A DNA stretch of 64,000 bases from Phormidium tenue FACHB-886 (GTDB lineage: Bacteria > Cyanobacteriota > Cyanobacteriia > Elainellales > Elainellaceae), in contig NZ_JACXWX010000004.1 of assembly GCF_014764505.1 (NCBI RefSeq), forward strand, positions 186,001 through 250,000, written 5' to 3'. Shown in pieces: positions 5,218 to 48,955 of the stretch (position 1 is its first letter; each line of letters begins with the position of its first letter). The notes beneath the pieces are model-generated. The model was not told the DNA's origin. It saw only the letters and a list, made by a program, of their open reading frames with translations, and did no database searches. A program made the translations under genes and the position numbers.

Positions 5218-5440
5218 AGTCTACTCCTACGCAGTGCGGCATGCGCCGTTCAATGGATCGCTTACTCCGGTTACTACACCTATCTCAAAGCCAGTTCCGT
5301 AACTGTCAGAAATTTTATTGCAGTTTTTTATTGCTCAGGTAATAGAAGAGATTGAACAGCTTGAAAGATCTTACCTTGAGCGATCGAAAACCCTTGAGAA
5401 AATTTAGCGCTCTCCCGATCGGAGCTAGTACATAAAATTA

Positions 5441-7075
5441 CTATACTGCCCCTTCAACAATGAATTCCAATGCCTGACTGCGCGGATTGCCAAACTTAAG
5501 CTGAGTACGTGAACGCAGGGGAACTTCCTGATGATGCACTTTGTGCCAGCCTTCTGCCCCTAGAACCCAAGTTCCCCAGCGCGATCGGTCGCGCAGCAGA
5601 TAGGTTGGCTCTATGTCTTCCTTCCAAGATGAATCGCGGTAGAAAATTTCTGCATGTTCCCGCGACACTTCGGGCTGTTGCAGAACGACATCATTGCCTT
5701 CACCCCGCCCCACGCGCATCATCCCACCCCGCACTGACCAGACCTGGTTAGGAGAGGCAAGCGATCGCAAGTAAGCAGTGGGAGTCTGCCGCCCTAACCA
5801 GCTAGGCGAGGCGTCTGGGATCTCGGTCACACCCTCGGTAAACGGTTGAATCAATTCGCCGTTGAACTCGGGATGCATGTAAAGCACAGGGAGCGTCCAA
5901 GCGGGTTGATTAAACTTGTAAAGCGTCAATAACTGCTGACGAGCGATCGCCACTGCTTCGTCAATGGGTGATCGCTCGGATAAAGCTCTGGCAAAAACCT
6001 GAATAAAAGTCAGCGCTTCTTGATCAGAAATCGAGTCGCGCATTCCTAAAACCGCCGGAACACCGTGATGGATTAGCACTTCGGCTAGGCTGCTGCGGGG
6101 AATTGCCTGCTGCCCTTGCTGATCGGGCTGCGCTCCCCAGCAAGCATTGAACACAGCCAGCTTCACTTGGCAACGAACCAACACCTGGGCTAGTTCTGTG
6201 CCATTTATGGAAGCATCTGGCTGCACCTTCAGCAAGCCGCCATCTGGAGCCGGAATGCCATGACCTGCATAGAATAAGACGTTATAGTTTCCTGTCTCTA
6301 AATTCTTAATCAGCTCAGCTGGTGTGGGCTGCACTAGCGTTTTCACCTGGCAGGCAGCTGGAGTGGTCATGCGGCTTCGCAGATCCGTAGTTGCAGCTGT
6401 TTCTAAGACCCTGGAAAGAGAAGCAGCTTCTTGCTCTAAGTCAAGGCGGGCGGGACTAGCATTTTCATCGGCATCGTGCCCCAAAACCAGCAGAATTTTG
6501 AGAAATTGTTCCGATCGCAGCAGTGGCAATGGATCAACATCGCTAGTAGTGCGGCTAAACAGCAGCTGCTGACTCAGCGAGGCTGCCTGTTTACCCGGTT
6601 GAGGCTGCATAATTTCCCAAGGCAAGGCGATCAAGTCTGGATCACGAATCTCTAGCCGCAGCCGCAGCGGACGGCTTTGCCCCATAGAGATCCCTTGGCT
6701 TTGATTGAAGCTAGTCTGGATGGAGCCATCAAAGAGCCATTGCCACAGGCTGATACCTAAATTTTGCATCAACCGTCCGGTGTAGCTAGTGGGCTGGTTT
6801 GAGTTGGGTGAAGTAATATCTAGCGGGCTGAGGTCGGGTAGCGGAGCGGGCGGGTCGGCTGCCCCTACATGGGGAACTGTTGGCAATCCGCGTAGAGAGA
6901 AGACGGTCTGCCAGTGCTGCCATAGATCGTTTAACGTCTGAGTCCACATCCGGTCATGGTGGACATATCCTCCAGGATAGGGAGCCTGAAACACCCAGAT
7001 TGCGTAATGTTGCGGCTCAGCAGCAGTGAGACGGGCGATCGCTAGACTTAGGCAAGGATTTTCAGACGGCGGCAT
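5441..7075 (-). CDS. CHAT caspase-like protease with C-terminal FHA domain
   Basis: A 544-residue protein. Residues about 190-405 are a CHAT (caspase HetF-associated with TPRs) domain: the catalytic His272 lies in VLFYAGHGIP and the catalytic Cys312 in VFNACWG, as in clan CD peptidases, and EVLIHHGVPAVLGMRDSISD is typical of the family. Residues about 450-540 are an FHA domain (RVGRGEGNDVVL, SREHAEI, WGTWVLG). The first 180 residues hold the usual poorly conserved CHAT-associated N-terminal region. CHAT peptidases serve in regulated proteolysis and, in other phyla, in defence or gasdermin activation. Here no TPR, gasdermin or nucleotide-sensor gene is adjacent, so a phospho-dependent signalling protease is the more likely reading. 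It points the same way as the upstream PP2C gene. Confidence 0.85.
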   Translation of the reverse strand: MPPSENPCLSLAIARLTAAEPQHYAIWVFQAPYPGGYVHHDRMWTQTLNDLWQHWQTVFSLRGLPTVPHVGAADPPAPLPDLSPLDITSPNSNQPTSYTGRLMQNLGISLWQWLFDGSIQTSFNQSQGISMGQSRPLRLRLEIRDPDLIALPWEIMQPQPGKQAASLSQQLLFSRTTSDVDPLPLLRSEQFLKILLVLGHDADENASPARLDLEQEAASLSRVLETAATTDLRSRMTTPAACQVKTLVQPTPAELIKNLETGNYNVLFYAGHGIPAPDGGLLKVQPDASINGTELAQVLVRCQVKLAVFNACWGAQPDQQGQQAIPRSSLAEVLIHHGVPAVLGMRDSISDQEALTFIQVFARALSERSPIDEAVAIARQQLLTLYKFNQPAWTLPVLYMHPEFNGELIQPFTEGVTEIPDASPSWLGRQTPTAYLRSLASPNQVWSVRGGMMRVGRGEGNDVVLQQPEVSREHAEIFYRDSSWKEDIEPTYLLRDRSRWGTWVLGAEGWHKVHHQEVPLRSRTQLKFGNPRSQALEFIVEGAV

Positions 7076-14319: not shown

Positions 14320-14399
14320 CACTATTCAAACTTCGATCGAATCCAACCTGTGTACTCGACTGTAGCAACCTGAATTGACTCACTAAGTAATTTAAATTA

Positions 14400-14434
14400 C
14401 CGCCTTTTGTAACCAAGAGGCGGCTTTTTTATTT
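14400..14434 (+). terminator. Intrinsic terminator
   Basis: CCGCCT 14400-14405 pairs with AGGCGG 14418-14423, followed by a T-rich tract to 14434. It separates the two PPC-domain genes, so the second has its own promoter. Confidence 0.85.
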
Positions 14435-24142: not shown

Positions 24143-24415
24143 ATGAGCAACACTGAAACTTACCTGAATCACCCAACATTTGGTCTGCTGTTTCGAGTTT
24201 GTTTGATTGAGGAAAATCGCGATCTATTTGCAACTTTATATGCCCAACGTTTATTTTTTATCGTCACAACTGGAGCAACAGGAATTCAGTTTGAGCCGAT
24301 CGGACGGACTGATGCTCGTATTTTAGTAGAAGGACGGCTAAGAGATTTGCGTCGTGCTGGGCAACATCAAGAGTTGAACAAGCTGCAAGCAGGTTACAAG
24401 CAAACGTTCCAGTAA
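24143..24415 (+). CDS. pipX: NtcA co-activator / PII-binding protein PipX
   Basis: A 90-residue protein matching PipX along its whole length: ETYLNHPTFGLLFRVC, ELFATLYAQRL-type core (here DLFATLYAQRLFFIV), FEPIGRTDARILVEGRLR and the final helix ending in YKQTF. PipX binds either PII (GlnB) or NtcA and so couples 2-oxoglutarate level to nitrogen-regulated transcription. The ATG at 24143 fits the family; the frame is open to 24056, but those codons look unrelated. It is followed by pipY, as in most cyanobacteria. Confidence 0.93.
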   Translation: MSNTETYLNHPTFGLLFRVCLIEENRDLFATLYAQRLFFIVTTGATGIQFEPIGRTDARILVEGRLRDLRRAGQHQELNKLQAGYKQTFQ

Positions 24416-40193: not shown

Positions 40194-40314
40194 AGCCATG
40201 AATGCGCGGAATGCTGCCTTGCCTCTTTCAAAGGTAAGGTTTAGCTTCTTTACTGAGTCCGCTATCATGTGATGAACTGTACATTATTTGTACTGCCCGA
40301 TTGAGGCTGTATTC

Positions 40315-41232
40315 ATGAAACGAATTCGTCGCTTATTGCTTCTGCCCCTTATTGCTCTGCTGACGGCTGGTATTTTGATCGCCTGTGCCAGCGGCGGCGG
40401 CGGTGATACAAGCAGCGCCAATGCACCTATCAAAGTCGGTTCCAAAGATTTTACAGAGGCATTTATCATTGGTGAAATGTATTCTCTGGTTTTGGAAAAA
40501 GCAGGATTCCAGGTAGAACGGAAGCTAAATCTAGGTGGAACGCCTGTGGCACAGGCAGCCTTGGTCAGCGGCGAAATTGATTTGTATCCAGAGTACACGG
40601 GAACAGCGCTGCTAGATATCCTTAAGCAGCCTGCAAATGCAGATTCCAAGCAGGTGTTTGACACTGTTTCAACGCAGTACAAGCAGCAGTTTAACTTGGT
40701 GTGGCTAGATGCAGCGCCTATGAACAATACGCAAGCTCTGGCAATGACCCAAGAAGCTTCGAAGAAGTTTGGCGTTCGCACGATCTCCGACCTGGTCGCC
40801 AAAGCTGATCAGCTGACGCTGATCGGCGCACCAGAGTTTGAAGTCCGGCAAGATGGACTGCCCGGTATTAAACAAAAGTATGGCGATTTTGAGCTGAAGG
40901 AATACAAAGCGGTGGATTCGGGCTTGCGCTATAAAGGCTTGCTCTCTGGCGAAGCAGATGTCACCGTTGCCTATGGCACAGACGGTGAAATCAGCGCGAA
41001 TAATCTGGTTGTGCTAGAAGATGACAAAAAGCTATTCCCGCCCTATCAGGTTGCGCCCGTTGTGCGGCAGCAAGCCTTAGACACTAATCCCAACATCGCG
41101 CAAGCCCTAAATGCTCTAGCACCCAAGCTGACAACCGAAACTATGCAGCGCCTCAACAATGAAGTGAGCGGCAAGCAGCGCGAGCCAGCAGAAGTTGCCA
41201 AAGAGTTTTTAACCCAGGAAAAATTGCTGTGA
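40315..41232 (+). CDS. ProX/OpuCC-type glycine betaine/choline-binding lipoprotein
   Basis: A 305-residue lipoprotein: a signal peptide (MKRIRRLLLLPLIALLTAG) with lipobox ILIAC, then an OpuAC/ProX-like binding domain starting at IKVGSKDFTEAFIIGEMYS, with GEIDLYPEYTGTALLDI and SGEADVTVAYGTDGEI. This is the family of substrate-binding proteins for quaternary amines such as glycine betaine and choline (OsmF/YehZ, OpuCC). I use ATG 40315, nine codons inside the open frame, because it gives the proper signal peptide. The next gene starts within its stop codon. Confidence 0.9.
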   Translation: MKRIRRLLLLPLIALLTAGILIACASGGGGDTSSANAPIKVGSKDFTEAFIIGEMYSLVLEKAGFQVERKLNLGGTPVAQAALVSGEIDLYPEYTGTALLDILKQPANADSKQVFDTVSTQYKQQFNLVWLDAAPMNNTQALAMTQEASKKFGVRTISDLVAKADQLTLIGAPEFEVRQDGLPGIKQKYGDFELKEYKAVDSGLRYKGLLSGEADVTVAYGTDGEISANNLVVLEDDKKLFPPYQVAPVVRQQALDTNPNIAQALNALAPKLTTETMQRLNNEVSGKQREPAEVAKEFLTQEKLL

Positions 41233-42188
41233 GCGCCATTCAATTTGATCAGGTTACGCTTCAGTTCCCCGGTGCATCGCGTCCCGCTGTTGATCGCGCC
41301 ACTGCAACGGTTGAACCCGGACAGCTTGTGGTGATCTTGGGTCATTCGGGCTGTGGCAAAACGACGCTGCTGAAGATGGTAAATCGTCTGTATGAGCCGA
41401 CTTCTGGGAAAATTTACCTGAACGGCAAAGATGTTCGCCAGCTCAAAGTCACTGCGTTGCGGCAGCAGATCGGCTATGTAATTCAGCAGTCGGGCTTGTT
41501 TCCTCACATGACGGTGGCGCAAAACATCGGTGTTGTGCCGAAGCTGCTGCGCTGGGCGCGTCCTAGAATCCAAGCACGGGTAGATGAGCTGCTAACGCTG
41601 GTGCAATTGCCGCCAGAAGAATATCGTCACCGCTATCCAGCGCAGCTTTCGGGCGGGCAGCAGCAGCGGGTGGGTTTGGCGCGAGCCTTGGCGGGTGATC
41701 CGCAGGTGATGCTAATGGATGAGCCCTTTGGGGCAATCGACGCGATCACCCGCACCAGCCTCCAGGATGAAATTCTGCGGCTGCAGCGGCAGCTCCAAAA
41801 AACGATTCTGTTCGTTTCGCACGACGTTGAAGAAGCGCTGCGGCTTGCCGATCGCCTGATGATTATGGAGAAGGGGCAAATCGTTCAATACGATACACCG
41901 TTCAACGTTTTAACCAATCCTGCTAGCGCTTTTGTTCACGATCTGCTGGGCACAGACGACATGGTGCGGCAGCTCAGCTTGCTGCGCGTTGAAACAGCAA
42001 TGACATCGCCAACCGATCGCTTGAACGGTGAACCGACGGTTGATCGGCATGACAGCCTGCGTAATGCCCTGTCGCTGATTCTAAAAACAGGTGCACCCAA
42101 GCTGGCAGTTGTTGAGAATGGCGCGCCTGTAGGTGTTCTGACGCTAGAGCATATTCGGGATTCAGCCGGAGTTCGGGCAAACGCGTGA
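41229..42188 (+). CDS. ProV/OpuCA-type ABC ATPase
   Basis: A 319-residue ATPase starting at GTG 41229, which overlaps the preceding TGA (GTGA), so translation is coupled. Walker A ILGHSGCGKTT, the signature LSGGQQQRVGLARAL and Walker B VMLMDEPFGAID are intact. The last 70 residues form a partial CBS-like domain (HDSLRNALSLILKTGAPKLAVVENG), as in OpuCA. The permease expected in a quaternary-amine importer is not encoded here: a strong hairpin follows and the next genes run the other way. Confidence 0.92.
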   Translation: MSAIQFDQVTLQFPGASRPAVDRATATVEPGQLVVILGHSGCGKTTLLKMVNRLYEPTSGKIYLNGKDVRQLKVTALRQQIGYVIQQSGLFPHMTVAQNIGVVPKLLRWARPRIQARVDELLTLVQLPPEEYRHRYPAQLSGGQQQRVGLARALAGDPQVMLMDEPFGAIDAITRTSLQDEILRLQRQLQKTILFVSHDVEEALRLADRLMIMEKGQIVQYDTPFNVLTNPASAFVHDLLGTDDMVRQLSLLRVETAMTSPTDRLNGEPTVDRHDSLRNALSLILKTGAPKLAVVENGAPVGVLTLEHIRDSAGVRANA

Positions 42189-42359: not shown

Positions 42360-43178
42360 TCAAGATTGCTGCTGTTTCTTAGAAAGAAATTGGAAGGTGG
42401 TAAAGGCGATCGCAATCAGCGCAAACGAAAACAGCGTGGTCAGCGTCCCCAAGGCATATAGCGCGGGTGACGTGACGTTTGTGGTCATGCCAAAGATCTC
42501 CAACGGCAGTGTATTGTCTTGCCCCGACACAAGCGACGTACGAGTAAATTCATCGTAAGACAGTGTAAACGCCAACAAACCAATGCCAACCAAGCTTGGC
42601 AGGATTAGCGGAAATACGACTTCCCAAAATGTTTTTGTATCTCCCGCACCCAGATCTTTAGCGGCTTCCTCATAGGAAGGATTAAAGCGATTAAACACGC
42701 CCAGCATGATTAAAAACGCGAATGGTACTGTCCAGGTTAGGTGTGCGCCAAAACCGGATGAGAACCAGTTCGTTTCCACCTGCAGCACCTGGAACACAAT
42801 GCCAATCCCTAGCGAAATCAGGACGCTGGGAACAATCAGGCTGGAGATGGTGAGATAGAAAATTAAATTCGATCCTTTAAAGCGGTTGCGAAATGCCAAC
42901 CCGCCCAAGACGCTGACGATCGTCGACAGCAGCAGCACTGCCAGCCCCAAAATCAGCGATCGCTGGAACCCCTCAACAAAGTTGCCGACTCGCTGTTCGG
43001 CGAACACCTGCCCCAGCCAATAGAAGCTGAAGCCGCGCATGGGAAAGGTGAGCGTTCCATCCGGTCCCTGCAGCGACAGCATGAAAATGGCGATCATTGG
43101 GCCGTAGAGGAACAGCACAAATAGCCCAAAGAAAGCTGCCAGTAGAAAAAAGGAAAGCGATCGCGTTTTCATCGTCAT
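42360..43178 (-). CDS. PotC-type ABC permease
   Basis: A 272-residue inner-membrane permease with six hydrophobic segments and the EAA loop YEEAAKDLGAGDTKTFWEVVFPLI typical of the polyamine/opine/thiamine-type importer family. It is the last gene of the operon potA-potD-potB-potC-like and starts 20 nt after the potB-like stop. The substrate is inferred from context to be a nitrogen-rich organic cation or ureide rather than a polyamine. Confidence 0.9.
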   Translation of the reverse strand: MTMKTRSLSFFLLAAFFGLFVLFLYGPMIAIFMLSLQGPDGTLTFPMRGFSFYWLGQVFAEQRVGNFVEGFQRSLILGLAVLLLSTIVSVLGGLAFRNRFKGSNLIFYLTISSLIVPSVLISLGIGIVFQVLQVETNWFSSGFGAHLTWTVPFAFLIMLGVFNRFNPSYEEAAKDLGAGDTKTFWEVVFPLILPSLVGIGLLAFTLSYDEFTRTSLVSGQDNTLPLEIFGMTTNVTSPALYALGTLTTLFSFALIAIAFTTFQFLSKKQQQS

Positions 43179-43198: not shown

Positions 43199-44053
43199 TT
43201 AAAGCTCTTTGCGAATATCGACCACGCGCAGAATGCCCGCTACCAGAATCAGCGTCACCCCTAGCAGCACCACCGCATTTGCTGCTGCCAGCGGATACTG
43301 CAGGCTGCCGATCTGCGTCTGGATCAGCTTACCCACCGAGGCCGACTGTCCGCCGCCCATCAGCCGCACCGTAACAAACTCCCCCATCACCAGGGTCACC
43401 ACAAAAATCGAGCCGATCGCAATCCCCGGAGCTGCCAGCGGCAAAATAATCTCTTTCAACGTCTGAAAGCCCGACGCGCCCATGTCTTCAGCGGCTGTAA
43501 TCAAGTTGCGATCGATCCGCATCAGGCTGTTGAAGATGGGCGCAATCATGAAGAAGTTATATAAATGCACCATGCCCAGCACGACCGCAAAATCAGAAAA
43601 CAGCAGCCATTCGATCGGCTGTTGAATCAATCCTGCGCCTATTAGCCCCGTGTTGATTAGCCCCTCTTTACCCAGCACCGGCACCCAGGAGATCATGCGG
43701 ATGATATTGGAAGTCCAGAAGGGGACGGTACAAACCAGAAATAGAATAATCTGCAGCTTTTGGTTTTTGATGTAGAACGCCAGAAAATACGCAACTGGGA
43801 AGGCGAGCGCCAAACAAAAAAACCAAACTAAAAATACATACTTAAACGTATTGAGATAGGTTTTGAGGGAAACGCTGGAGGTAAAAATTTCAAGATAGTT
43901 CTCCATCGAGAAGGCGGGCGTCATGGCAAAACCATTAAACTGCCAGAAGCTAACGATGAAGATCATGACGATCGGAAACACCAAAAACAGCAGGAAGACC
44001 AGCGTTTGAGGCGTTACCAGAGCATAAGGCTGTAGCGCTTTCCAGGCTTTCAT
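43199..44053 (-). CDS. PotB-type ABC permease
   Basis: A 284-residue permease with six hydrophobic segments beginning TLVFLLFLVFPIVMIFIVSF, and the EAA loop ITAAEDMGASGFQTLKEIILPL. It pairs with the PotC-type protein to form the membrane channel. A small perfect hairpin separates it from the binding-protein gene upstream. Confidence 0.9.
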   Translation of the reverse strand: MKAWKALQPYALVTPQTLVFLLFLVFPIVMIFIVSFWQFNGFAMTPAFSMENYLEIFTSSVSLKTYLNTFKYVFLVWFFCLALAFPVAYFLAFYIKNQKLQIILFLVCTVPFWTSNIIRMISWVPVLGKEGLINTGLIGAGLIQQPIEWLLFSDFAVVLGMVHLYNFFMIAPIFNSLMRIDRNLITAAEDMGASGFQTLKEIILPLAAPGIAIGSIFVVTLVMGEFVTVRLMGGGQSASVGKLIQTQIGSLQYPLAAANAVVLLGVTLILVAGILRVVDIRKEL

Positions 44054-44120: not shown

Positions 44121-45449
44121 TTACGATGCAATAAACTCATTCCACTTCTTAACCAGGTATACCTGCTCTTGCATCGTGGAGTTCCAGACCACAACGTTAC
44201 CCATCCGCTCTTTGAAGGAGCCACCATCGCGGACAGCACCCTTCTTCTCTAACGTTTTGCCAAACGGATCAACCATGTCGGCCGCCGCCGCCTTGCCTTC
44301 GTACCAAAAATCCCATTCCTCCGGCTTCATAAACTTACGAGCATTTTCAGGAATGGCGCTGTAGTAGCCTTGCCGTCCGAGGAAGGCGCCTACCCAGCCG
44401 TCTAGCAGCCAGTTGAAATATTCATAGGCAGCATCCAGCTGGATACCCGACAGATTCTTCGACAAACCCACGCCGCCGCCCCAAGCGCGATAGCCTTCTT
44501 TCAGCGGCGCATAGATGCACTGCACCCCCTTCGCTTTCACGGCAGTGACCGCAGGCGACCACATCGACTGCAGCACCACCTCACCCGAAGTCATAAAGTT
44601 GACCGACTCATCAAACGTCTTCCAGAAGGCGCGGAACTGCCCGTTGGCTTTTTGCTCTCTTAGAATCTCGGTGATCTGATCGATCTCAGCACGGGTCATG
44701 TTGCCCTTGTCACCAAATTTCATCAGCCCGGCGGATTCTGCCACCAGTGCGGCGTCCATGATGCCGATCGAGGGAATATCCAAAATTGAAGTCTTGCCTT
44801 TGAAAGCCGGATCAAACAGCTCCCCCCAACTCTCAATCTTCTTGCCCGTCAAATCAGGACGATAGCCCAAGGTGTCAGCATTGTATTGAAACGGAATCAG
44901 CGTTGCCCAGTCGGTCGCTTCGGTGGCAAAATCTTTAGAGTTTTGATCCCTGAGGTACATCACCTTGTAGGGAAAAGTGCCTTGGGCTTGCTCTACCTTG
45001 GCACCGTCAAACTTGTTTTGGGTGAAGATGGGAACGATCTTGTCGAAGTCTTTGATCCTTTTAGTGTCGATCGCCTGCAGATTTCCAGAGGGTACTACCA
45101 GCGGCAGGCTGAAGAACTCGCCATCAAAAATGTCATACTGACCCGGCTGGGTAATGGCGATCTGGTTGTTTTCTTCGGTGCTGAGGGCACGCATCTCCAG
45201 CTTAAAGCCCAAATCTTCCTGGGCTTTGTTGCGGATTTCGTTGATCTGAGAAACGCCTGTGCCGATTAGCCGCAGCGTCACATCTTTAGTTTGATTGGTG
45301 TTAACTTCTGGGCTTTGCGCCGGGTTGTTGGGGGTGCCGCTGGGAGCTGTGGCTTGGTTGCTGGGTGAAGAGGCACAGCGCGTTGCAGCAAAAGCAGCTC
45401 CAGCCGCCAACCCAGTCCGCATAATTTGACGACGAGTAAGTTTAGCCAT
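44121..45449 (-). CDS. PotD-type extracellular solute-binding lipoprotein
   Basis: A 442-residue family 1 binding protein. The N-terminus LTRRQIMRTGLAAGAAFAA has a twin-arginine-type motif and is followed by a lipobox-like ATRC, so Tat export and lipid anchoring are likely. The mature part begins after a Ser/Pro/Asn-rich linker (VTLRLIGTGVSQINEIRNKA) and carries family stretches such as FQYNADTLGYRPD, SWGELFDPAFKGKTSILD and WGGGVGLSKN. At about 400 mature residues it is longer than E. coli PotD. The ligand is not readable; the operon context points to a nitrogenous compound. Confidence 0.88.
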   Translation of the reverse strand: MAKLTRRQIMRTGLAAGAAFAATRCASSPSNQATAPSGTPNNPAQSPEVNTNQTKDVTLRLIGTGVSQINEIRNKAQEDLGFKLEMRALSTEENNQIAITQPGQYDIFDGEFFSLPLVVPSGNLQAIDTKRIKDFDKIVPIFTQNKFDGAKVEQAQGTFPYKVMYLRDQNSKDFATEATDWATLIPFQYNADTLGYRPDLTGKKIESWGELFDPAFKGKTSILDIPSIGIMDAALVAESAGLMKFGDKGNMTRAEIDQITEILREQKANGQFRAFWKTFDESVNFMTSGEVVLQSMWSPAVTAVKAKGVQCIYAPLKEGYRAWGGGVGLSKNLSGIQLDAAYEYFNWLLDGWVGAFLGRQGYYSAIPENARKFMKPEEWDFWYEGKAAAADMVDPFGKTLEKKGAVRDGGSFKERMGNVVVWNSTMQEQVYLVKKWNEFIAS

Positions 45450-45548: not shown

Positions 45549-46736
45549 TCAATGGGGCAAGAAAACGCACTCTTCTGTCTTCCAGCTAAGCGTCACCAGT
45601 TGCCCTTCTGGGACAGGCTGCCGCATCCATTCCGAGCTACGGACTTTGTAGACAATTTCTTGTCCTGTGGATTCTGCCATGAGCGAGACGCGGGTAATGT
45701 ATCCGGTAAACTCAATCAGGACAATCCGCGCCGTAAGCTGGTTCGGTGCAGCGGGGTCTGCAGGCGGGTAAGGCAGCAAGTCTATGCTGTCGCTACGGAC
45801 ACAGCAAGCTGCCGTCATGCCAGGATTGGCCGTTTGCCCTTTGCAGAAAAATGTGCCGATCCCGTCCACGTCTAGGCGGACGATCGCCCCCGTCTCCTCC
45901 ATTGCCACGCCGCTGACGGTGCCTACAAAGATATTGTTGTCGCCGACAAAGCGAGCCACAAACCGCGAGGCAGGCGCTTGGAAGATCTCATCAGGCGTGC
46001 CAATCTGGTCAATGTGCCCGTGATCCATCACCACAATGCGATCGGACAAGGCAAAGGCTTCGTCTTGCCCGTGGGTCACCTGAATAAATGTCATACCAAA
46101 CTGCTTTTGCAGCTTCCGCAGCTCTGAGCGGGTGTGAACTCGTAAATTTTCATCTAGCGCGCTCAGTGGCTCATCGAGCAGCAGCACCTGCGGACGAGTC
46201 ACCAGCGCCCGTGCTAGGGCTGCCCGCTGCTGCTGTCCACCGCTGAGCTGAGCGGGTTTGCGCTCGGCAAAGCGGCTCATTCCCACGATTTCTAGAATCT
46301 CGCCCACCCGCTGAGCGCGTTCGCTCTTGGGCATGTTGCGCATCTTCAAGCCAAACTCTATATTTTCCCAAATTGTTTTGTGCGGAAACAGCGCATAGTT
46401 TTGGAACATCATCGCTGAGTTGCGCTTCGCGGGGGGCAAATCGTTAACCCGACGATCGCCAATCAAAATATCTCCGCTCGTCACCTCTTCGTGTCCGGCA
46501 ATCATTCGCAGCGTTGTAGTTTTGCCGCAGCCACTCGGGCCCAGCAGGCAGGTATAAGACCCCGCTGGAATATCGAGATTAATGTTCTCAACGGCAGTAA
46601 ATGAGCCGTATTTCTTCGTGACCGATCGCAGTGTTACGCCAGCGCTTTGGTCTGCCAGCTCTTTTTGAATTTGGCTGTCTGCTATAGCCTGGAGATCGCT
46701 GGTGATCGGGGTAGAAGTGGAAGCAGGTGAGTTCAT
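45549..46736 (-). CDS. PotA-type ABC ATPase
   Basis: A 395-residue ATPase and first gene of the importer operon. Walker A LLGPSGCGKTTTLR, signature LSGGQQQRAALARAL, Walker B VLLLDEPLSALD and the H-loop THGQ are intact; the C-terminal about 120 residues form a TOBE domain. The first 38 residues are a variable extension. An NtcA-type promoter lies 122-164 nt upstream of the ATG, so transcription of potA-potD-potB-potC should rise under nitrogen limitation. Confidence 0.93.
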   Translation of the reverse strand: MNSPASTSTPITSDLQAIADSQIQKELADQSAGVTLRSVTKKYGSFTAVENINLDIPAGSYTCLLGPSGCGKTTTLRMIAGHEEVTSGDILIGDRRVNDLPPAKRNSAMMFQNYALFPHKTIWENIEFGLKMRNMPKSERAQRVGEILEIVGMSRFAERKPAQLSGGQQQRAALARALVTRPQVLLLDEPLSALDENLRVHTRSELRKLQKQFGMTFIQVTHGQDEAFALSDRIVVMDHGHIDQIGTPDEIFQAPASRFVARFVGDNNIFVGTVSGVAMEETGAIVRLDVDGIGTFFCKGQTANPGMTAACCVRSDSIDLLPYPPADPAAPNQLTARIVLIEFTGYITRVSLMAESTGQEIVYKVRSSEWMRQPVPEGQLVTLSWKTEECVFLPH

Positions 46737-46857: not shown

Positions 46858-46900
46858 ACAATACACAAGCAATTTGGCACAGAATTGTAGCTTGAAATAC
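46858..46900 (-). promoter_or_regulatory. NtcA-activated promoter of the importer operon
   Basis: On the minus strand GTATTTCAAGCTAC (46900-46887) matches the NtcA box GTA-N8-TAC exactly. After a spacer of 23 nt comes TATTGT (46863-46858), which fits the -10 consensus TA-N3-T. This spacing is that of classical NtcA-activated cyanobacterial promoters. The predicted transcript start is near 46850, leaving a leader of about 115 nt before the PotA-type start. Confidence 0.8.
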
Positions 46901-46958: not shown

Positions 46959-48215
46959 TTACTGATACACTCGATCGAGCTTCATCAGGGTTTGCAGGAG
47001 CACATTTGCCCCCTGAGTACACTGTTCGGGTGAAGTATACTCCTGGTTGGAATGGCTGAGCCCGTTTTGGCTAGGCACAAAAATCATACCCATATCGGTA
47101 ATTCGTCCGATCTCTAAAGAGTCATGTCCGGCGCGGCTAGGCATATGGCGATAGCTCAACCCCAACTCCTGGCAGACCTGCTCGATCGCATCTTGCACCG
47201 TCGGCGCTGCCAGCGTTGGCTCGACGCAGAGCAGTGGACTTAAAGTGATCTCAGTGTCGGTAGCTGTGGCGATCGATCGGATTTCCTGCTGCAAGCGCTC
47301 CAGCATCTGGTTGAGGCAGTCCTGTGAGAGGTCACGCATATCCACAGTTAGATCAACCTGTCCCGGCACAATATTGACGGCATTGGGGGCAACCGTGAGA
47401 AAGCCGACCGTTGCCACGGGCTGGCTCGGCATACTCAGAGCAATTTCTTGCACCGCCAGCACAATTTGGGCAGCAGCAACGAGGGCATCTTGCCGCAGGT
47501 CCATGGGGGTGGTTCCAGCATGGTTGGCTTGCCCTTTGATCTGGATCGCCTTACGTAGCATACCCACCACACCCTGCACCACGCCGATCTCCTTACCCGC
47601 TTTTTCCAACACGGCTCCCTGCTCTACATGCAGCTCCACAAAGGCAGCTATATCGCTACGGGTGCGTTGCGCCGTTTCTAGCGCATCCCAGTTGCCGCCC
47701 ACTGTTTCCAGGCAGGCTTCAATCGTGGTGCAGATCGAGGCGCATTTGGCGTTGGGTTTGTATTGCTCTGGCGATCGTTTAGCCGTGCCTGCCATCGCCT
47801 GACAGCCAATCATAGTGTTCTCTTCATCCGTGAATACGATCACCTCGAGCGGGTGGTTCAGCCGAATATCGTTGTCTCGCAGCGTCCGCACTACTTCAAT
47901 CCCAGCCAGCACACCCAACACACCGTCATACATGCCGCCCGATGGAACGGTGTCAATATGCGACCCAGTTGCCAAGGCAGGCGCACCGGCAACCGTACCG
48001 GCATAGCGACCGATAATATTTCCGGCGGCATCGGTGCGAACCGTCATGCCTGCTTCGACCATCCACTGCTGCACTAGGTAGCGGGCTTGTAAAATTTCGG
48101 GCGTGAAGGCAAGACGGCAGATGTCGCCGTTGGGCAACCGTCCCACTTTGGCAAGGCGAGTGATACTGGCATTGAGGCGATCACCGTTGACCGCAAGCGT
48201 TGAAAGAACTGGCAT
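46959..48215 (-). CDS. M20-family N-carbamoyl amino acid / ureide hydrolase
   Basis: A 418-residue binuclear-metal amidohydrolase of the allantoate amidohydrolase/beta-ureidopropionase/hydantoin-pathway carbamoylase group. Metal ligands are visible as His86 (GSHIDTVP), Asp97 (MYDGVLG), Glu131-Glu132 (TDEEN) and His196 (ELHVEQG), with a late LSHSNQEY histidine and the dimerisation motif GQANHAGTTPMD. The sequence after Glu132 (NTMIGCQAMAG) differs from the usual E-G-x-R-F, so the exact substrate is uncertain. I use ATG 48215 because GGAGAG lies 8 nt upstream; the longer start at 48242 has none. It lies directly upstream of, and in line with, the importer operon. Confidence 0.88.
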   Translation of the reverse strand: MPVLSTLAVNGDRLNASITRLAKVGRLPNGDICRLAFTPEILQARYLVQQWMVEAGMTVRTDAAGNIIGRYAGTVAGAPALATGSHIDTVPSGGMYDGVLGVLAGIEVVRTLRDNDIRLNHPLEVIVFTDEENTMIGCQAMAGTAKRSPEQYKPNAKCASICTTIEACLETVGGNWDALETAQRTRSDIAAFVELHVEQGAVLEKAGKEIGVVQGVVGMLRKAIQIKGQANHAGTTPMDLRQDALVAAAQIVLAVQEIALSMPSQPVATVGFLTVAPNAVNIVPGQVDLTVDMRDLSQDCLNQMLERLQQEIRSIATATDTEITLSPLLCVEPTLAAPTVQDAIEQVCQELGLSYRHMPSRAGHDSLEIGRITDMGMIFVPSQNGLSHSNQEYTSPEQCTQGANVLLQTLMKLDRVYQ

Positions 48216-48359
48216 ATTGACTCTCCGCAGATCTAGATGCAATGGATTCGGGCAAAAGGTGTTTTAGAAATGGGTGGGAGACGTTCTTGTGAAGTAGCGT
48301 TACACAAGGAGTTGGGGCTTGGCAGTATCACAAGCGGCAGATTGTCTGTAGCCTGTTGC

Positions 48360-48412
48360 TATACAACTCATTTCTACAAGCTTCTTTGTTGTATATTGCA
48401 TACTGTATACAA
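48360..48412. promoter_or_regulatory. TTGTATA/TATACAA operator cluster
   Basis: Between the divergent hydrolase and AH_C-type genes lie three copies of one half-site: TATACAA at 48360-48366, TTGTATA at 48389-48395 and TATACAA at 48406-48412. The last two form a 24-bp inverted repeat with a 10-nt centre that includes GCATAC. This resembles operators of GntR-family regulators (inference). No regulator gene is adjacent. Confidence 0.55.
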
Positions 48413-48568
48413 TTAATAGCCTGCAGAACGTATCTAAGCAAACAGTTTTCGATCGAATCTCCTCATTAAACAGTTTAAGGGAACCGCTCTTGTGCCCTTG
48501 AGACTGCTAGCCTGTATTGTCTTTGTATTGTCTGTAGTTGCAATGTTGTTTGGATATCTGAATAGATC

Positions 48569-48955
48569 ATGAAGCACGTCTTTATCTGTGGATCTGCCCT
48601 TCGGGGTCAGCCCGATCACCAAAATCTCCAGTCTGCTACCTTTGTCCGGGAAGCCAAAACCCAGCCGCTTTACCGCCTTCATGCAGCAGAAAATGGTTGG
48701 CATCCGGCTATTTATCAGGTCGAATCCGGCGGTATTTCAATCCCTGGAGAGCTTTATGCGCTAACGCCAGAGCAATATGACTACTTGGTTTCTACCGAGC
48801 CGCCCCACATGTACCCTGCTGATGTAATTTTGGAAAATGGTGAGATCGCAACTGCTATGCTGTACCCACGCGAGCTAGTAGAGCAGCATCACTGGGAAGA
48901 CATCTCCCACTATGGCGGCTGGGCAGCCTATAAGCAGGCAACAGTTGTTGCTTAG
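48569..48955 (+). CDS. Stand-alone allophanate hydrolase C-terminal-type domain protein
   Basis: A 128-residue protein related to the gamma-glutamylcyclotransferase/AIG2 fold, and closest in my memory to the C-terminal domain of allophanate hydrolase (AtzF). The pattern is a G-x-x-L-R-G opening (VFICGSALRGQPDHQ), a middle GELYALTPEQYDYLV, and the final DISHYGGWAAYKQ, matching the D-I-T-x-F-G-G-W-R-A-Y end of AtzF. The amidase half of AtzF is absent. In AtzF this domain is reported to take part in decarboxylation during allophanate breakdown; here it may serve a ureide pathway with the divergent hydrolase. A terminator follows. Confidence 0.75.
   Translation: MKHVFICGSALRGQPDHQNLQSATFVREAKTQPLYRLHAAENGWHPAIYQVESGGISIPGELYALTPEQYDYLVSTEPPHMYPADVILENGEIATAMLYPRELVEQHHWEDISHYGGWAAYKQATVVA

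Follow-up and report, generated by a model that had tools for sequence, protein, structure and literature searches.

The window, that is the whole 64-kb stretch of DNA analysed, contains a minus-strand operon in which a gene for an M20-family amidohydrolase (AAH) is followed by the genes of a PotABCD-like ABC importer, including its substrate-binding protein (SBP). The genes and putative promoter elements are as follows:

24143-24415, plus strand: pipX, the NtcA co-activator gene (Pfam PipX, 137 bits; NCBIfam, 141 bits against a cut-off of 125)
42360-43178, minus strand: potC-like permease gene (Pfam/NCBIfam profile matches)
43199-44053, minus strand: potB-like permease gene (Pfam/NCBIfam profile matches)
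44121-45449, minus strand: SBP gene (SBP_bac_8, PotD/YdcS-type fold)
45549-46736, minus strand: potA-like ABC ATPase gene (Pfam ABC_tran and TOBE_2; under the curated PotA cut-offs)
46858-46863, minus strand: putative -10 box TATTGT (TAN3T), 23 nt downstream of the NtcA box
46887-46900, minus strand: putative NtcA box GTATTTCAAGCTAC (GTA-N8-TAC), starting 164 nt 5' of the potA ATG
46959-48242, minus strand: AAH, first gene of the operon (NCBIfam allantoate amidohydrolase subfamily)
48396-48412, minus strand: palindrome TTGTATACAGTATGCAA, a likely FCD-GntR operator, enclosing TACAGT
48407-48402, minus strand: TACAGT, the likely -10 of AAH, inside the palindrome
48430-48443, minus strand: near-NtcA box GTTTGCTTAGATAC, with five of the six core bases, 22 nt upstream of TACAGT
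48569-48955, plus strand: AHC, a stand-alone gene of allophanate-hydrolase C-terminal type, divergent from AAH (Pfam AH_C, 103 bits)

AAH and potA lie on the same strand, separated by 222 nt, and potA starts with the ATG at 46736. The AAH open reading frame opens with TTG at 48242, although the ATG at 48215 may be the genuine start. The order AAH-potA-SBP-potB-potC recurs in relatives, accompanied in many loci by the divergent AHC gene; since AAH precedes potA in one operon, the potA promoter is an internal one. Genes of AHC type are also repeatedly found next to AAH, to the palindrome or to xdhA-like genes (L202, L206, L211, L212), and a urease is encoded in the genome as well. At 40288-42188 of the window, an osmoprotectant-type pair of SBP and ATPase genes, recognised by eye, has its end facing the pot operon and is unrelated to the promoter.

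The sequence-only reading had placed an NtcA promoter before potA, and the layout it claimed is exact: GTATTTCAAGCTAC at 46900-46887, a gap of 23 nt and TATTGT at 46863-46858, all on the minus strand and on the potA side. The box is centred at 46893.5, which is 41.5 nt upstream of ~46852, the putative start deduced from the TATTGT -10, and a transcript beginning there would run through potA-SBP-potB-potC. GTA-N8-TAC occurs three times in the 64-kb window against 3.44 expected from shuffles, and the combination of box, N23 and TAN3T has 30 matches in the whole 8.9-Mb genome against 50 for a reversed control pattern. With the consensus at chance level in both window and genome, the motif alone proves nothing, and it is conservation that carries the argument. 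These frequencies favour an alternative explanation, a chance match or a binding site for some other regulator, with potA transcribed solely from the AAH promoter. The remaining two GTA-N8-TAC matches in the window (5428-5441 and 14387-14400) displayed no promoter layout by eye and were taken as chance; the latter, which abuts a terminator-like hairpin followed by T's, is probably such a match.

To assess conservation, importer loci were gathered from the genomes of relatives and from GTDB genomes (best 80 of 424 loci). The first set comprised 41 loci (L091-L130 plus the window), from which L095, L124 and L127-L130 were dropped as having no usable potA start, leaving 35; one of these, L097, offered just 191 nt upstream of potA. 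The second set consisted of the 62 loci, among the best 80 from GTDB, with a potA of >55% identity and 330 nt of upstream sequence. Merging of the two sets (35 and 62) yielded 81 distinct loci, and removal of two non-cyanobacterial ones left 79.

Of the 79 distinct cyanobacterial loci, 49 had an exact GTA-N8-TAC in the 330 nt preceding potA, against 0-9 loci (mean 4.2) for each of the other spacings between GTA and TAC; as the potA loci are related to one another, no exact probability is claimed for this count. Once look-alikes sharing 9-mers were removed, the exact box was present in 46 of 74 potA upstream regions. Among all 4096 NNN-N8-NNN patterns, GTA-N8-TAC ranked first in the 79 regions (49; mean 5.8, sd 3.5), with ranks 2 and 3 (41 and 30) occupied by the identical motif shifted by one base to either side. 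The remaining pot genes were hardly ever preceded by the exact box, the counts being 1/84 for SBP, 1/80 for potB and 0/77 for potC. In the 35-locus set, window included, it occurred within 330 nt of potA in 19 loci, spacings of 2 to 20 otherwise giving 0-4; the average over all 64 palindromic NNN-N8-NNN cores was 2.9, and the runner-up reached 9. Base shuffling of upstream sequence produced an exact box in 8.8% of cases. The 62 GTDB loci contained it in 38 instances, with 0-9 for other spacings. Loci sharing the AAH-potA-SBP order of the window had the exact box in 11 of 17 cases (10 of 16 excluding the window), and the other six had a 5/6 box at best; such partial boxes before potA carry no weight, because 81% of shuffles contain one.

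Among 44 boxes from relatives, 14 have a TANNNT 22-25 nt downstream; at each of offsets 9-21 and 26-34 it was found for at most one box, and at offset 2 for four. The positive control was urtA, given as a known NtcA target in PMC3898017: 24 loci scoring over the cut-off were used, L240 was dropped as a truncated locus, the starts of L223 and L237 were set manually, and an exact box was present in 18 of the 23 loci counted, other spacings giving 0-5. The flanks of the potA box are similar to those of the urtA boxes of relatives.

The expectation that relatives would keep the box was borne out by the 49 loci in which it is exact; it failed for the other 30 of the 79, which had no exact box in the 330 nt upstream of potA and include all four loci of genus g18 in the 35-locus set (G017 twice, G026, G032). 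These 30 loci count in favour of a chance match, against which stand the 49 of 79 loci compared with 0-9 for other spacings, the positional -10 and the urtA-like flanks. The GTA and TAC of the GntR palindrome are moreover separated by 7 nt, not 8, which argues against a site of that other regulator. This explanation appears highly improbable. A genuine NtcA promoter is the preferred reading, and the features of class II found at potA are a GTAN8TAC box, a TAN3T -10 at 23 nt and conservation upstream of orthologues. Given the conservation of the box, the positional -10, the urtA-like result and the presence of ntcA in the genome (388.5 bits against a cut-off of 244.95, at G000:C1:179465-180043), the site was accepted as an NtcA class II promoter, as the sequence-only reading had proposed, and on comparative sequence evidence it looks real. 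The pipX gene, invoked in the same proposal, is also real, although the argument from it adds little because it lies ~22 kb away.

Canonical NtcA-activated class II promoters include those of urtA, nirA, glnA and ntcB, as described by Picossi et al. (2014; PMC3898017). The potA site resembles them in its GTAN8TAC, its TAN3T -10, a centre ~41.5 nt before the deduced start and its urtA-like flanks. It differs in that its two flanking genes, AAH and potA, belong to one operon, and in that the promoter at the head of this operon pairs a near-NtcA box with a GntR-type palindrome covering the -10.

This palindrome, with consensus TTGTATACAGTATACAA, is present upstream of AAH at many loci and, where potA heads its operon, can precede potA itself (e.g. 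L096, L118, L290, L293, L305, L312). Out of 92 oriented palindrome matches, the 39 with an intact TACAGT were tabulated, and nine of them had five or six of the six NtcA core bases exactly 22 nt upstream; at other spacings (10 to 59), an NtcA-like box preceded the palindromic TACAGT at 0-3 of the 39 sites. All nine sites are AAH or pot promoters. The simplest reading of the AAH promoter is that NtcA activation would be combined with binding of a regulator across the -10, and the protein bound at the palindrome would presumably repress. AAH genes unlinked to pot in L127 and L128 (G027 and G018) had neither box nor palindrome in the upstream 330 nt. The possibility that the potA box is itself a GntR operator was ruled out, the palindrome being GTA-N7-TAC and a spacing of 7 occurring upstream of potA in 5 of 79 loci against 49 of 79 for a spacing of 8.

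In the genome of the window, the palindrome was found at up to two mismatches in three places (none for the reversed control): before AAH; beside uraD, encoding OHCU decarboxylase (TIGR03164, 190 bits against a cut-off of 96), with a guanine deaminase gene (581 against 375) and a permease-like gene lacking an NCBIfam match on the same stretch of contig; and before hpxO, the gene for an FAD-dependent urate hydroxylase (609 against 500). Another copy, with three mismatches, is located ~0.3 kb upstream of an FCD-GntR gene followed by uraH, which encodes hydroxyisourate hydrolase (129 against 87). The genes concerned are scattered on several contigs. Across 60 genomes, 30 had matches; the match rows numbered 76 and those of the control 7, most palindromes being counted on both strands. 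Twenty additional loci were hand-picked from this match list; at 12 of them (L194, L195, L197, L198, L200-L203, L206-L208, L211) the gene immediately after the site was of purine-pathway, permease, AHC, AAH or GntR type, or belonged to a Rieske-hpxO pair, at five (L196, L205, L210, L212, L213) such a gene was in the stretch and not directly downstream, and at three (L199, L204, L209) the stretch contained none. Several genes at these 20 loci owe their names to inspection by eye or to similarity with genes of the window's genome, not to an NCBIfam score; two proteins from palindrome loci were scored, one as xdhA (498 against 467) and the other as a xanthine permease (429 against 414).

The regulator gene and the palindrome tend to occur together. 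Among 36 genomes, 19 had both a close GntR orthologue and the palindrome, three the GntR alone, two the palindrome alone and 12 neither (Fisher p 2.6e-5, kinship ignored). Exceptions include G012 (L100), with the palindrome and no close GntR orthologue, and G005, G010 and G021, with the GntR and no palindrome at two mismatches. The palindrome is likely to be the operator of one FCD-GntR regulator of purine breakdown, as judged from its genomic distribution.

Evidence on the substrate of the importer comes in part from AAH. This protein scored 430.8 bits with NF006771, the allantoate amidohydrolase subfamily (cut-off 399), and remained under the cut-off of the AllC equivalog TIGR03176 (276.9 against 597.75); its family also includes N-carbamoyl-amino-acid hydrolases and beta-alanine synthases, which was counted against the allantoate reading. 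It also scored close to the N-carbamyl-glutamate amidohydrolase ErtE (436.5 against a cut-off of 520), and its best solved relative is the N-carbamoyl-L-amino acid hydrolase 3n5f. These matches suit an alternative in which the NtcA promoter is genuine and the importer and hydrolase serve hydantoins, dihydropyrimidines or N-carbamoyl amino acids instead of allantoin/allantoate. Also in keeping with it, a gene scoring as dihydropyrimidinase/hydantoinase (TIGR02033, 583 bits against a cut-off of 393) adjoins the pot operon in several relatives (L096, L101, L106, L115, L116, L259, L261, L318), and racemase-like and cytosine-permease genes are close by in some loci; at L116, the cytosine permease gene is alongside the dihydropyrimidinase/hydantoinase gene. 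Since that gene stands beside several cyanobacterial pot operons, other cyclic ureides stay candidates. In the window's genome, its orthologue is unlinked to the pot operon (contig C112, L157), and the 14.5 kb around it contained no palindrome at up to three mismatches. What weighs against this alternative, which we regard as unlikely, is that the palindrome is common to hpxO, uraD, uraH and xdhA, and that importer homologues outside the cyanobacteria adjoin AllB, ureidoglycine aminohydrolase or PuuE.

At two such loci, the potABCD homologue lies among allantoin genes. In a Caldilineales MAG (Chloroflexota, L316), it is preceded by a gene for a xanthine-dehydrogenase-type oxidoreductase, which had no model over cut-off, and followed in turn by allantoinase AllB (494 against a cut-off of 358), (S)-ureidoglycine aminohydrolase (287 against 200) and, truncated where the locus ends, a gene of the AAH family. 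The corresponding order in Tolumonas osonensis (L326) is GntR, potABCD, a racemase-like gene with no NCBIfam match and allantoinase PuuE (529 against 425). The proteobacterial importer homologues as a group (L319-L326; Azospirillum, Roseibium, Donghicola, Tolumonas) have 55-61% identity, with a racemase-like gene in all eight and a second FCD-GntR type in most.

The other candidate use of the importer is NtcA-controlled uptake of polyamines, which would serve as a source of nitrogen. The gene set and SBP fold are indeed those of the PotABCD and PotFGHI spermidine-putrescine importers, and PotB, PotC and PotA models rank among the best partial matches of the importer proteins. Two models of the SBP were built, one from 11 close sequences (pLDDT 43), which was discarded, and one from 30 sequences (pLDDT 87), which was used; the latter matched YdcS with Z 33.3 and PotD (1pot) with Z 30.8 over 317 residues at an rmsd of 2.7. 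As the PotD/YdcS fold is common to polyamine, GABA and opine binders, it does not settle the ligand. The importer departs from the polyamine systems in several respects. The SBP shares 13-19% identity with the solved polyamine binders heading the fold-match list and matched no NCBIfam family at E 1e-3, while the ATPase missed both PotA cut-offs (TIGR01187, 330.5 against 355.6; NF006987, 343.8 against 482). Two residues after a conserved Trp, the SBP has Gly325, invariant in 30 homologues, where YdcS, VcPotD1, the PotD of 4eqb and the PotD-like SBP of the same genome have Asp, a residue which we take to hold the polyamine amine. That PotD-like SBP, encoded elsewhere in the genome, matched PotD, PotF and YdcS models, all below cut-offs, and the neighbours of the present importer are ureide genes. 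Polyamine uptake seems very improbable. Most likely, judging from gene context and protein comparison, the importer brings in a ureide of purine breakdown, the candidates ranking as allantoin/allantoate first, other cyclic ureides next and polyamines last.

Taken as one reading, a class II NtcA internal promoter, an AAH promoter overlapped by GntR and a ureide importer are proposed with a probability of roughly three in four. NtcA works with 2-oxoglutarate and PipX. Under nitrogen shortage, 2-oxoglutarate-loaded NtcA with PipX would bind 46887-46900 at about -41.5 and recruit RNA polymerase to the TATTGT -10, giving more potA-SBP-potB-potC transcript. At the AAH promoter, the FCD-GntR regulator would act over the -10 in combination with NtcA activation, so that this promoter would fire on nitrogen shortage plus a purine/ureide signal. 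The internal promoter would allow the nitrogen signal by itself to switch on importer synthesis, before inducer has entered the cell; the ureide would then be imported and hydrolysed by AAH, with release of ammonium. The binding of NtcA and GntR, the induction, the start sites, the direction of GntR control and the substrate are all predicted from the comparisons above. The earlier proposals of a nitrogen-limitation operon and of a role other than polyamine housekeeping are both upheld by the comparison of loci. The sequence-only reading is nonetheless incomplete, having missed the internal position of the potA promoter, the NtcA-like/GntR promoter of AAH and the purine/ureide regulon.

On a wider scale, we lean towards a two-input purine/ureide regulon in filamentous cyanobacteria related to Elainella, Leptolyngbya and Nodosilinea, in which GntR would sense products of purine breakdown pathway-wide and NtcA would sense nitrogen shortage only at the hydrolase and importer, the PotABCD-like proteins forming an undescribed allantoin/allantoate importer family that would also occur in Proteobacteria and Chloroflexota. 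The promoter type itself is already known. The two-input regulon may be undescribed, as may the family of ureide importers; in the openly searchable literature, the combination of NtcA with allantoin, xanthine dehydrogenase, uric acid or PotABCD brought up no such system. The enzyme families are those of bacterial purine/allantoin catabolic groups (xdh, hpxO, uraH, uraD, allantoinase, allantoate amidohydrolase), here linked by one palindrome, and importer homologues occur within such groups in the Caldilineales MAG and Tolumonas. Unlike in the usual groups, the genes are scattered over several contigs, NtcA-like boxes being found only at the AAH and importer promoters. A general nitrogen regulator is likewise tied to allantoin use in Burkholderia cenocepacia, where NtrC is needed for it and a potA/potD pair is among the NtrC-regulated genes (PMC5491218). 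That system differs in using NtrC instead of NtcA, and the account of it in PMC5491218, as far as it covers the pot genes, does not link them to allantoin.

If correct, the proposal would provide a likely function for a transporter family easily mislabelled as a spermidine/putrescine importer, and would make purine ureides a candidate organic nitrogen source for filamentous cyanobacteria. It would also describe a compact promoter in which global nitrogen activation and pathway-specific regulation by GntR converge on one -10 box.

Further gene types were observed near the palindrome. Rieske-type oxygenase genes lie beside it or beside purine genes (L154:14956-16014, L195:5149-6102, L201:5040-6059, L210:4035-4982) and could encode purine or methylxanthine oxygenases. 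Genes of a NitT/TauT-type ABC transporter, recognised by eye, adjoin the palindrome in two genomes (L205:2025-4677 and L212:5405-8399, in G028 and G058), on stretches that also hold hpxO or uraH, and possibly represent a second importer type of the palindrome regulon.
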